The translations under genes were made by a program, and so were the position numbers. Under the pieces are notes generated by a model. The model saw only the letters and a list, made by a program, of their open reading frames with translations. It did not search any database and was not told the DNA's origin. A stretch of 64,000 bases of DNA from an uncultured Deferribacteraceae bacterium (GTDB taxonomy: Bacteria; Chrysiogenota; Deferribacteres; Deferribacterales; Mucispirillaceae): NCBI GenBank assembly GCA_947039395.1, contig CAMQYS010000004.1, positions 1-64,000 of the forward strand, read 5' to 3'. Positions 22,947-28,158 of this stretch are shown here, piece after piece (the first letter of the stretch is position 1; the number at the start of each line of letters is the position of its first letter).

Positions 22947-23831
22947 TTACTTAAATTGTAATCTTGTAGTTATACCACAAGGCATATACATCTTACCCTC
23001 TCTAAAAGGAAGAACTGTCTCCTTTATTGTAAGTACAGAGTTATTATTTAGATACTGTGAAAATACATCTAACATAATATTATGTAAAGCTGTTGATGAT
23101 ATAGATGCTGTGTATGTATTCAATATTATATACGATTTACTATCTGAAAGCAGTTTACGTACATTAACAAGTAGATCCCATAAATCATCTTGCAATTTCC
23201 ATATTTCACTATTAGCCCCTCTACCAAAAGCTGGTGGATCTAATATAATAGCATCATATTTTTTCTCTCTTCTAATATCTCGTTCAACAAACTTCATACA
23301 ATCATCAACTATAAAGCGTACTTTATCTTCACGCACTTTAGATAAATGGCTATTCTCTTTACACCAATTAACAGCACCTTTTGAAGCATCCACATGCACA
23401 ACGTTAGATCCACCAACAGCTGCGGCAATAGATGAACCACCAGTGTAACCAAAAAGATTTAAAGTTGTTTTAACTTGATCTCTTCTATTCTTATCAATTA
23501 TAAAGTCCCAGTTCACTGCTTGTTCGGGAAATAATCCTGTATGCTTAAAACCAGTTGGCTTAACTTTAAATTTTAATTGTTTATAATTTATAAACCAGTT
23601 ATCTGGAACGCTATCAGCATCTAAATATTTCCACTCTCCACCACCTGATGAACTACGAAAATATATCGCATCAGCTTGATCCCATAGCTTATGATCTGAT
23701 CGTTTCCATATAGCTTGAGGCTCAGGCCTAATGAGAACTATATCTTTCCATCTCTCTAAACGCTCTCCTGATCCTGCATCAATTAACTCGTAATCTTCCC
23801 AACTATCTGAAATTAAAATATCTTCTCTTAT
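22947..23831 (-). CDS. RlmI-like SAM-dependent methyltransferase, apparent ATA start
   Basis: Class I methyltransferase of the COG1092/RlmI-like group that probably methylates rRNA. The C-terminal catalytic half has the SAM-binding LNLFGYTGGSSIAAAVGG, the acidic VHVDASKGAVNWCKENS and the catalytic LDPPAFGRG. The conserved N-terminus (SDSWEDYELIDAGSGERLER, then IRPEPQAIW) is fully encoded upstream, but no in-frame ATG, GTG, TTG or CTG occurs before 23516. The best start is ATA at 23829-23831, seven bases after a perfect AGGAG, giving MREDILISDSWEDYE. A start at GTG 23514-23516 would delete 105 conserved residues. Either a rare AUA start or early decay of the gene explains this. Confidence 0.8.
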   Translation of the reverse strand: MREDILISDSWEDYELIDAGSGERLERWKDIVLIRPEPQAIWKRSDHKLWDQADAIYFRSSSGGGEWKYLDADSVPDNWFINYKQLKFKVKPTGFKHTGLFPEQAVNWDFIIDKNRRDQVKTTLNLFGYTGGSSIAAAVGGSNVVHVDASKGAVNWCKENSHLSKVREDKVRFIVDDCMKFVERDIRREKKYDAIILDPPAFGRGANSEIWKLQDDLWDLLVNVRKLLSDSKSYIILNTYTASISSTALHNIMLDVFSQYLNNNSVLTIKETVLPFREGKMYMPCGITTRLQFK

Positions 23832-23917
23832 GACACCACTCCTAAACCAAAATTACGATGATTATATATTATATTATAAATAAATGATATTAATATTTAT
23901 ATCAAAAACAATAATAA

Positions 23918-24850
23918 TTAAATTACTGCCTTGCCCTTAAAATCATCTATACAATTAAATAGTTTGCTATTCATATATTCTCTTAATTCATTTGAAATAT
24001 TTATTGCAGCAGATGGATCTGTAAAGTTTGCTGTTCCTACTTGTACAAGATCTGCTCCTGCTAAGATAAACTCTGCAGCATCATTACCTGTCATTATCCC
24101 TCCCATACCTATGATAGGGATTTTTACCGTATTAAACGCCTCGTAAACCATTCTTAATGCTATAGGCTTTATCGCAGGGCCTGATAGTCCACCTGTTTTA
24201 TTAGCAAGCACAGGTTTAAAATTATGAATATCAATCGCCATACCTATCAAGGTATTGATCAATGATACAGAATCAGCACCCTCTCCTTCTACAACTTTTA
24301 GATACTCTTTTATATCAGAAACATTAGGTGATAACTTTATAATTAGAGGCTTATTACGAATAACTTTTCTAACTTTATGTGTAATCTCTATAGTAGCATT
24401 AGGTGATGATGAAAATGATATTCCACCATCTTTAATATTTGGACATGAAATATTCATCTCAAGCATATCAACACCATCTGTATTATCTAAAATTTCAGCA
24501 ACTTTAAGATATTCATCTATACTTTTTCCCCAAAAATTAACTATTATATTTGTATCGAAACTTTTTAATATCGGTAATTTCTCTGCAATAAAAGTTTTTA
24601 CACCAACATTCTGTAAACCGATCGCATTTAATAATCCTGATGGGGTTTCTACTATTCTTGGCATAGGGTTGCCCTCTACTGGTTCAAGAGATATACCCTT
24701 AATTGATATTCCACCTAATAAATTTAAATCGATAAAACGGATAAATTCTAAACCGTATCCAAATGTTCCTGATGCAGTAATTACAGGATTTTTAAATTTT
24801 ACTCCACAAATCACTTTTTCTAATATATTGTTTTTACTGTTGCTATTCAT
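23918..24850 (-). CDS. pyrD: Dihydroorotate dehydrogenase B, catalytic subunit
   Basis: FMN enzyme oxidising dihydroorotate to orotate in pyrimidine synthesis, class 1B. Signatures seen: NPVITASGTFGYG at the N-terminus, IGLQNVGV, EMNISCPNI with the catalytic Cys of soluble class 1 enzymes, SLINTLIGMAIDI, and the FMN-phosphate segment IGMGGIMTGNDAAEFILAGADLVQVGTA. 310 residues, normal length. It directly follows pyrK with no gap, as expected of the PyrD-PyrK heterotetramer that passes electrons to NAD. Confidence 0.95.
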   Translation of the reverse strand: MNSNSKNNILEKVICGVKFKNPVITASGTFGYGLEFIRFIDLNLLGGISIKGISLEPVEGNPMPRIVETPSGLLNAIGLQNVGVKTFIAEKLPILKSFDTNIIVNFWGKSIDEYLKVAEILDNTDGVDMLEMNISCPNIKDGGISFSSSPNATIEITHKVRKVIRNKPLIIKLSPNVSDIKEYLKVVEGEGADSVSLINTLIGMAIDIHNFKPVLANKTGGLSGPAIKPIALRMVYEAFNTVKIPIIGMGGIMTGNDAAEFILAGADLVQVGTANFTDPSAAINISNELREYMNSKLFNCIDDFKGKAVI

Positions 24851-25645
24851 CTATACCAACCTTTCCCATACAATCTTTTTACCATCAAAAATAGGGCCTT
24901 CAACACAACAACGTCTATTCACAATTGATCCATCATTAGATATAGTTGGAATAAGGCAACCTAAACAAGCACCTATTCCACAACCCATTTTTGCTTCCAT
25001 TGATACCTCAATATCAATACTCTCATCAATTAACAACACAGACTTAACAAGTACAGATAACATACCTGTAGGACCACAAGCATATATATTATTGAACTTC
25101 TCATCACTTGATAACAATAGCTTTGTTACTAGACCTTTGCTACCAACTGTTCCATCAAGTGTTGACACCTCAAGATTATCATAAGAGGTAGATAAGATAT
25201 CTAATGGTAAAATATCTTTCTTCGATGCACCACCGTAAAATAATGTAACTTTATTACCATGTTTTCTAAGTACTTTACCTAAAATAATCATCGGAGCAAT
25301 ACCTACTCCACCTGCGACTAAAGCTACATTCTTATTTTCACATATAGAGAATTTTGTACCTAATGCACCTACAATATTTAATTTATCTCCCTCTTTCACA
25401 GAGGTTAGCATAGTAGTCACTCTACCAACTATTCGGTATATAAATAAAATTCTATTGTTATCTAACATATCTGCAATAGCGAACGCTCTATTAATTAATG
25501 GATCAGAGTTTGTTTCATTATTTATACGAGGTGATATCATAAAAAACTTACCAGCCTCACTGCTTGCATATAACTCTTCTGACTCTACAATCATATAGCC
25601 GTAATCATTATTTATTTGGGTATTTTGAATAACTTTTGCTTTCAT
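24851..25645 (-). CDS. pyrK: Dihydroorotate dehydrogenase B, electron-transfer subunit
   Basis: 264-residue FAD/[2Fe-2S] protein that connects the PyrD FMN to NAD. FAD-binding RAFAIADML, the NAD-binding ALVAGGVGIAPMIILGK, YACGPTGML, and a C-terminal cluster-binding segment with cysteines CGIGACLGC and RRCCVEGP, the expected ligand pattern. It lies immediately upstream of pyrD, whose ATG directly follows the pyrK stop. A plain promoter was not identified in the 80-bp spacer to the upstream ccoI. Confidence 0.94.
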   Translation of the reverse strand: MKAKVIQNTQINNDYGYMIVESEELYASSEAGKFFMISPRINNETNSDPLINRAFAIADMLDNNRILFIYRIVGRVTTMLTSVKEGDKLNIVGALGTKFSICENKNVALVAGGVGIAPMIILGKVLRKHGNKVTLFYGGASKKDILPLDILSTSYDNLEVSTLDGTVGSKGLVTKLLLSSDEKFNNIYACGPTGMLSVLVKSVLLIDESIDIEVSMEAKMGCGIGACLGCLIPTISNDGSIVNRRCCVEGPIFDGKKIVWERLV

Positions 25646-25725
25646 AATCTCTCTATTAATTATTTATTGAAATCTTATATTAAAAGTAGTTTAACATAAA
25701 AAAATAAAAGGGTTTTTACTGGTTT

Positions 25726-28158
25726 TTATTTTCTTAATCTAGATGAGTTGAGTATAACCATTAATGATGAAAAACTCATAAATGCAGCACTCATTACTGG
25801 ATGAATATAGCCTGCAACTGCAAGTGGAATAGCTACAAGGTTGTATGAAAATGACCATAGAAGATTTTCTTTCATTATCCTTAAACTCTTTCTACATATT
25901 TTCTGTGCTTTATTAATAATTGTAAGATCGTTTCTAAGTAATATAGCTGATGCTGACTCCATAGAAATATCTGTAGAGTTTCGCATAGATATCCCAACCG
26001 ATGCCTTAGTCAATGCAACAGCATCGTTAATCCCATCACCTATCATACACGTTCTATTAATATCCTTAGATCTACCTATTATATCTGATTTCTCAAATGG
26101 AGATATATCTGATATAATATCCATATTTATATCATTACTTATTAACATATATTTTGCAGATGAATGATTATCTCCTGTTAATAATGTAACCTTGTTGCCA
26201 TCATCAATTAATTGATCTATAAACGTTTTTGCTTCACTTCTTATCGTATCTGTTATTGCAAATACAGCAAATAGCTTATTATCAATCGCCATCATTACAA
26301 CAGTTTTGCCTGTTGAAATATATATTTCCATCTTACTACTAATATTGAGGTTATATTCAACTTTAAAATCTTTCATCAACTTATGATTACCGATCAGGTA
26401 TTTTACATTATCAACTTCTGCTTGAATACCTTTTCCAGGATACTCTTTATACTCAATACTGTTATCAACATCAATATACTCACAATCTTTAAAAATAAAG
26501 TTAGATATAGATTTTGATGCAGGATGCATAGAGTTATATGTTATTTTGCCGATCGTATCAAATGAGTTTTTATACTTATCCAATATCTCATAATCTACAA
26601 CTTTCATTTTACTTTCAGTAATCGTGCCTGTCTTATCAAGATAGATATCATTGACCATAGCCATACGTTCTATTGATTGTCCATTCTTAAATAATATCCC
26701 TATGTTCATAAGTCGTGAGGTAGAATTGATAATAGCTAACGGAGTTGCAAGCCCCATTGCACAAGGGCAAGCGACAACTATTACAGATACAGCACGCATA
26801 ATATTAGATGATAATTCATTATCAGAAAAAACGCTCCAACTTATAAAAGTTAATATTGAAATTAAAAGCATCGCTGGTACAAAATATGATATAAACTTAT
26901 CTGCAAAATTTTGAATATCAGCCTTACTACTCTCTGCATCATCAACAGCTGTTGCGATCTTTGAAAGAAATGTATCCTCTCCAATTCTAATAGCTGTTGC
27001 AACTAATTTTCCAGATAAATTAAGGCTACCTGAATAGACTTCATCGCCCATACTTTTAGATACTGGTAACGGCTCTCCTGTTAACATAGACTCATTAATA
27101 TCTGATTCCCCATACACAATCTTACCATCTAATGCTACTGATGAACCTTCCTCTATTAAAAATAATTCACCAATTTTTAACTCTTCAATGTTGATTACAA
27201 AAACATTGTCTAAATCTGTAATATCTAACACTTTTTTAACAGTCAATGGACGCATATTTAACAGTTTAGAAACAGCATCTCCACCACGTTGCTTAGCACC
27301 AGCTTCAATAAACCTTCCAAGTAATATCAGTGTTATAATCGTAGTGGCTGTATCAAAATAACTTTCATGTCCAGTAAAAATAGCAACAACACTATATATG
27401 TATGCAGTACCTGATCCTAATGCTACAAGTGTATCCATCGTCCAATGTCGATGCCGTGCTGCTTTAAGAGAATTTCTAAAAAATGGATACGCACAATATA
27501 ACATAACAGGAGTAGCTAAAAGAAAAGAAACATACTGAAAAAATGATCTTAACTCATCCTCTATACCTTGAAAATATCCAGTATATAATGCACCAGAGTA
27601 TAACATTAATTGCATTGTTAAAAATAAAGCTGTGATAAATCTATAGAAATAATCTTTACGCTCTTTATCTGCATTAGATAAAATATCTGTTATCGGAAGT
27701 GGACAATACCCTAATGAAGTGATAATCTCTAACATATCATCTATTGAGATATCTAACGGTGAAAAACGTATCTTAGCTTTATGATTAGAATAATTTATTC
27801 TAATAGATTTTATACGGCCATCGTCAAGTAACGATCTTTCAATTAACCATATACAACTTGCACAACGGATATTATCAATTACTACCGATAATTCTATATC
27901 GCCTTCTGGAAGATTAGTTATAGATTTATTGAAAAAATCTGAGTTGATTTTAATCTGTTCAAAAGGTTTGTAATCTTTAGCAGTACGCTTTACATAAAAT
28001 GAAGATAATCCTTTAGACTCTATTAAATCATAAACAGCATTACAACCACTACAGCAAAAATGTATGTCCCTCTCTTCATCGTAGATAGAAGTATTTTCTT
28101 TTATTAAACTGTTGCAATGTGCACAATATTTATCATTTGATATTTTCGTCATCATCAT
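25726..28158 (-). CDS. ccoI: CcoI-type copper-transporting P-type ATPase
   Basis: P1B-type ATPase that supplies copper for CuB assembly in cbb3 oxidase. 810 residues: an N-terminal cysteine motif typical of CcoI/FixI (CAHCNSLIKE and HFCCSGCNAVYDL), an HMA-like domain with IRCASCIWLIE, eight membrane segments, the actuator TGEPLPVSKSMGDEV, the ion-binding CPC in VACPCAMGLATP, the phosphorylation site DKTGTIT, and hinge GDGINDAVALTKA. It starts with three consecutive ATG codons inside the end of ccoS, an overlap of 26 bp, so the last two genes of the assembly operon are coupled. Confidence 0.94.
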   Translation of the reverse strand: MMMTKISNDKYCAHCNSLIKENTSIYDEERDIHFCCSGCNAVYDLIESKGLSSFYVKRTAKDYKPFEQIKINSDFFNKSITNLPEGDIELSVVIDNIRCASCIWLIERSLLDDGRIKSIRINYSNHKAKIRFSPLDISIDDMLEIITSLGYCPLPITDILSNADKERKDYFYRFITALFLTMQLMLYSGALYTGYFQGIEDELRSFFQYVSFLLATPVMLYCAYPFFRNSLKAARHRHWTMDTLVALGSGTAYIYSVVAIFTGHESYFDTATTIITLILLGRFIEAGAKQRGGDAVSKLLNMRPLTVKKVLDITDLDNVFVINIEELKIGELFLIEEGSSVALDGKIVYGESDINESMLTGEPLPVSKSMGDEVYSGSLNLSGKLVATAIRIGEDTFLSKIATAVDDAESSKADIQNFADKFISYFVPAMLLISILTFISWSVFSDNELSSNIMRAVSVIVVACPCAMGLATPLAIINSTSRLMNIGILFKNGQSIERMAMVNDIYLDKTGTITESKMKVVDYEILDKYKNSFDTIGKITYNSMHPASKSISNFIFKDCEYIDVDNSIEYKEYPGKGIQAEVDNVKYLIGNHKLMKDFKVEYNLNISSKMEIYISTGKTVVMMAIDNKLFAVFAITDTIRSEAKTFIDQLIDDGNKVTLLTGDNHSSAKYMLISNDINMDIISDISPFEKSDIIGRSKDINRTCMIGDGINDAVALTKASVGISMRNSTDISMESASAILLRNDLTIINKAQKICRKSLRIMKENLLWSFSYNLVAIPLAVAGYIHPVMSAAFMSFSSLMVILNSSRLRK

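Follow-up and report, generated by a model that had tools for sequence, protein, structure and literature searches.

The analysed stretch of DNA (hereafter the window) comprises the first 64,000 nucleotides of contig CAMQYS010000004.1 from an uncultured gut bacterium of the Deferribacteraceae, whose genome is AT-rich (30.6% GC). Its minus strand carries a methyltransferase gene of the PF10672 family (22947..23831, defined by its open frame, its Pfam score and its homology to structure 2IGT) downstream of pyrD (23918..24850, minus strand, from the ORF list). Read from an ATA codon at 23829..23831, 86 nt from pyrD, the methyltransferase frame holds 294 sense codons and ends with a TAA stop at 22949-22947. 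A Shine-Dalgarno motif, AGGAG (23839..23843, minus strand), precedes the ATA with a spacer of exactly 7 nt (TGGTGTC). The in-frame codons 5' of the ATA read TAA TTT TGG TTT AGG AGT GGT GTC, and the stop eight codons upstream makes a conventional start further upstream impossible. The first in-frame NTG codon is GTG at 23514..23516 (codon 106; minus strand), with no ATG, GTG, TTG or CTG earlier in the frame. An earlier sequence-only reading had placed the start at this ATA, seven bases after AGGAG, and had counted 105 codons free of such starts before the GTG; our re-reading of the sequence bore out both the coordinates and the counts. Promoter and terminator scans of the methyltransferase gene gave chance-level results only, and RNA folding over its ribosome-binding site revealed no conserved or significant structure in the three calculations (z = -1.5, 0.7 and 0.7).

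In a Pfam profile search, the predicted protein scored 64.4 bits with PF10672, whose gathering score is 27. By sequence, its closest solved structure is 2IGT (E = 1.3e-56), which we take to be the SAM-dependent methyltransferase Atu0340 of Agrobacterium; the two appear to have a common fold over residues 5-256 of the window's protein, with residue 5 aligning to chain residue 36 and chain residues 36-290 covered. Because this alignment begins at residue 5, the first 100 residues of the protein lie within a known fold. The Pfam score, together with homology along most of the chain, thus places the protein among the 2IGT-like SAM-dependent methyltransferases of PF10672, and by its family it is likely an RNA methyltransferase. 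The label "RlmI-like" given to it earlier is correct for the PF10672-type SAM-binding core, which is common to RlmI and RlmK/L, but too loose beyond it: only the catalytic core matches the equivalog models of these 23S rRNA methyltransferases, and the scores lie far below the curated cut-offs (51.8 vs 712 bits for RlmI, 88 vs 466 bits for RlmK/L). The protein is therefore not assigned to RlmI, the 23S rRNA m5C1962 methyltransferase.

Two congeners, G001 (CAMRDM010000027.1; 94% protein identity) and G003 (CAMQYB010000121.1; 91%), carry the same ribosome-binding site and the same ATA, their start region reading AGGAGTGGTGTC-ATA-AGAGAAGAT without change. From -16 to +12, 27 of 28 bases are identical between the window's genome and each congener, AGGAG included, while the bases further upstream diverge (25 of 44 identical). 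For codons 2-105 (23517..23828, minus strand), which would stay untranslated if the GTG at 23516 were the start, the three pairwise species comparisons gave dN/dS values of 0.074, 0.072 and 0.018, from 24, 26 and 12 synonymous against 10, 11 and 1 nonsynonymous changes. The remainder of the gene gave similar values (0.04-0.08). Such low values imply that the N-terminus is translated as protein in all three species, and the view that these codons encode a conserved N-terminus was upheld by the selection data (dN/dS 0.02-0.07) and by the 2IGT alignment alike.

These comparisons bear directly on three ways of explaining the ATA away. Initiation at the GTG alone would yield a protein of 189 residues; this codon is the first conventional start, and the standard ORF list begins there. 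We nevertheless judge it not to be the main start and consider its exclusive use highly improbable, as it lies within the conserved fold, a search for a Shine-Dalgarno motif before it found none, roughly 100 residues that align with 2IGT would be lost, and the 105 codons upstream evolve under protein-level selection. An error of sequencing or assembly at the start codon is conceivable in a metagenome assembly, yet the identical ATA in three separately assembled species, within a coherent Shine-Dalgarno site, reduces its probability to almost nil. Each of the three ATA-bearing genomes was assembled from metagenome data, and one study supplied two of them.

The third explanation is a recent loss of the start codon, by which the gene would be decaying and its full-length product no longer made. 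The AT-rich genome would favor such a loss, as would the congener G002 (98% complete), which has no methyltransferase gene. However, the ATA is common to three species separated by dS values of 0.2-0.6, the frame is intact in each of them, and dN/dS stays at 0.02-0.08 throughout. Moreover, over the segment compared (window positions 22947-28158), pyrD is likewise missing from G002, and the closest match there to the P-type ATPase of the window is only 34% identical; the gap in this genome is a whole segment, deleted or unassembled. We thus regard recent decay as very improbable, if marginally less so than the two preceding explanations, and the earlier suggestion of a fresh ATG-to-ATA mutation that has begun to silence the gene is not supported, since the ATA arose before these three species diverged. 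Taken together, the shared ATA and the purifying selection rule out sequencing error, recent decay and initiation at GTG 23516 only.

A fourth explanation moves the start to another near-cognate codon: the GTC directly before the ATA, an ATT or ATA at codon 5, or an out-of-frame GTG GTG TCA TAA followed by re-entry at the ATA. All of these codons are present, and sigR of Streptomyces provides a precedent for a GTC start (PMC5472188). Their distances from AGGAG fit poorly, at 4 nt for GTC (short), 19 nt for codon 5 and at most 2 nt for the two GTGs, and only the ATA column, not that of the GTC, aligns with the NTG starts of relatives. We therefore hold this explanation to be unlikely, although it is the least improbable of the four. 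A frameshift or mini-ORF arising from GTG GTG TCA TAA was rejected, as several other genes with AUN starts contain no such element.

Across eight genomes from two sister genera, the column aligned to the ATA holds TTG in seven and GTG in one. When their sequences were read, the pyrD stop was found to overlap or abut the methyltransferase start in several of them, whereas the window's genus has the 86-nt gap with its own Shine-Dalgarno site. Among 78 distant orthologues from other phyla, 65 have an NTG within -12 to +8 codons of the aligned start, and the other 13 have ATG or TTG at aligned codon 5-7. The NTG codons of sister genera and distant orthologues mark the ATA as a change of the window's genus. 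Comparing the start codon in orthologues, as had been recommended, thus confirmed ATA in three congeneric species and pointed to TTG or GTG as the likely predecessor, not the ATG assumed previously.

We conclude that the ATA is most likely a fixed, working start codon that replaced UUG or GUG, a reading strongly supported by its fixation in three species and the strong purifying selection on the codons that follow it. Very probably, ordinary 30S initiation at the AUA (23831-23829) starts translation of the methyltransferase, which descends from a gene with a UUG or GUG start and belongs to a set of genes starting with AUA or AUU. Initiation at this codon in the cell is what we infer from comparative sequence. 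In the proposed mechanism, AGGAG would pair with the 3' end of 16S rRNA, and the initiator tRNA would read AUA through a third-position mismatch. The ancestral UUG or GUG, overlapping or adjoining the pyrD stop, would have been turned into a stand-alone Shine-Dalgarno site with AUA in the window's genus. An altered initiator tRNA was rejected as the cause of AUA use because its GGG/CCC stem retains all three G-C pairs; IF3 is present, and we found no striking change or clear candidate change in it.

Native AUA starts are known from Staphylococcus aureus (ccpN, infC and citZ), that of ccpN also from Bacillus subtilis (PMC13009471). In S. aureus they yield about 10% of the output of an AUG reporter, with ccpN reaching as much as 30% in rich medium (PMC13009471). 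The window's gene resembles these three in combining AUA with a strong Shine-Dalgarno motif at normal spacing, and ccpN in the conservation of the codon between species. It differs in phylum and gene and in having AGGAG in place of an extended motif; furthermore, the S. aureus starts were demonstrated by Ribo-Ret and reporters, and the present one is predicted from comparative sequence. Other conserved non-canonical starts include AUU or AUC in infC of E. coli and Streptomyces and GUC in sigR of Streptomyces, and IF3 represses non-canonical starts in both organisms (PMC5472188). Codon and gene are different here, and IF3 control was shown for those systems. By analogy, initiation at the methyltransferase AUA would be weaker than at AUG and presumably repressed by IF3. 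Low, tunable expression, as suggested earlier, is plausible in view of the published AUA reporters. A weak start may have been favored for its regulatory use, or AT pressure may have led to its being tolerated. A reconstruction of 61,358 ancestral AUG starts, based on annotated starts, contained a single change to AUU and no change to AUA (PMC5622118); this count must be read with caution, since AUA is seldom called by annotation pipelines.

Our survey for further AUN starts took in about half of each of two genomes: 1.21 Mb (~57%) from the genome of the window and 1.15 Mb from G001. Among 548 orthologous pairs, conserved starts with a Shine-Dalgarno motif in both genomes were ATG/ATG in 274, TTG/TTG in 26 and GTG/GTG in 25. 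The methyltransferase combines the absence of ATG, GTG or TTG at or near the homologous start with a codon conserved in three species ahead of a sequence under coding selection and a Shine-Dalgarno motif at functional spacing (AGGAG, 7 nt). Apart from it, two of the 548 pairs had no nearby NTG but a conserved AUN codon, namely hflX (ATA) and a fabH-like gene (ATT), each 7 nt after AAGGAG. A single-genome scan added ATA starts for a CcdA-like protein and a double-cubane-reductase-like protein, and ATT starts for a PHP-domain phosphatase, msbA and a CobC-like phosphatase, as well as for a TPR protein and a membrane protein of unknown role, the last two with ATT also in G001. In total, of the 992 genes that span 120 codons or more, about 10 (about 1%) have such a start, several of the added candidates resting on one or two genomes.

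The enrichment was also apparent in genes without an NTG start, taken with no selection on the codon. The codon at the start position after the Shine-Dalgarno motif was AUA, AUU or AUC in 7 of 9 such genes in the window's genome and in 5 of 6 in G001, against an expected share of 9.9% (binomial tails 2.7e-6 and 5e-5); these are small samples with three genes common to both genomes. In this genus, AUA seems to serve as the start codon of hflX and ccdA, and AUU as that of fabH, msbA and the PHP-domain gene, in each case behind Shine-Dalgarno motifs.

Relatives give some indication of how these starts arose. The PHP gene has ATT in all four congeners and ATG at that column in three sister-genus genomes. 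For the ccdA-like gene, three congeners read ATA and the remaining one reads ATC; the same column holds ATG in G006, and TTG follows one codon on in G005 and G008. For fabH, the four congeners have ATT, and ATG stands one codon earlier in the sister genera. The genus thus seems to have replaced NTG by AUA or AUU in the methyltransferase, ccdA, PHP and fabH genes. In msbA (contig C7 of the window's genome from about 57763, plus strand; loci L302-L310), the four congeneric species and G004 have an ATT start, G006 and probably G005 and G008 have ATA, and G015 and probably G020 have TTG.

The broadest pattern concerns hflX (contig C3:61458-63086 of the window's genome, minus strand; loci L235-L250 and L312-L317), which encodes a ribosome-splitting GTPase. 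In each of the 20 Deferribacterales genomes whose N-terminus could be read, the start position of this gene holds ATA (15 genomes, in three of which it stands one codon earlier) or ATT (5 genomes), in most cases preceded by a strong GGAGG-like motif; two of the 20, G020 and G041, have an additional in-frame NTG further upstream. Outside the order, the same codon is ATG in G046 (assigned to the same class but another order) and TTG in G058 (another phylum). This order-wide pattern, in which AUA and AUU exchange and NTG is not found, argues for selection on the hflX start. Our literature search found no non-AUG start of hflX, which is weak evidence of absence. For infC (loci L267-L282), an apparent ATA start follows TGGAGG in most of the order, with ATC in G004. 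In the window's genus the infC start is ambiguous because the Shine-Dalgarno motif is spaced differently and an ATG stands in frame five codons further upstream; three of its four species have GGGGG instead of GGAGG.

Few AUA starts have been documented in bacterial genes. Conserved ones are already known from infC and ccpN, and the methyltransferase adds to them. Three findings are new to the extent that we could establish: the AUA start of the methyltransferase, the AUA or AUU start that hflX has throughout the order, and a genus with about ten such genes in the half genome read. The apparent enrichment, at about 1% of genes, is of greater interest than the single methyltransferase case. Tentatively, and with slightly less than even confidence, we suggest that this lineage has relaxed or re-purposed third-position discrimination, such that AUA and AUU serve as regular minor starts in about 1% of genes, msbA included, with an order-wide AUA/AUU start in hflX and apparently such a start of infC in most genomes. 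If so, hflX and infC would form a small IF3-sensing gene set, truncated or missed by standard annotation, and gene finders limited to ATG, GTG and TTG would truncate or miss proteins in this lineage generally. The AUN-started genes would also offer a natural test of third-base discrimination at initiation and of whether the level of IF3 sets the output of chosen genes.

Two further reading frames came to light during the survey. A radical SAM gene (C2:105875-106925, minus strand, in the window's genome; C8:3574-4623 in G001) runs for about 150 codons free of NTG; a conserved ATC that overlaps the end of the upstream gene, behind a weak Shine-Dalgarno motif, is a candidate start. In G001, the best scanned start of an open reading frame resembling cytosine-DNA methyltransferases (C28:16871-17915; L220) is an ATA after GAGGTG.
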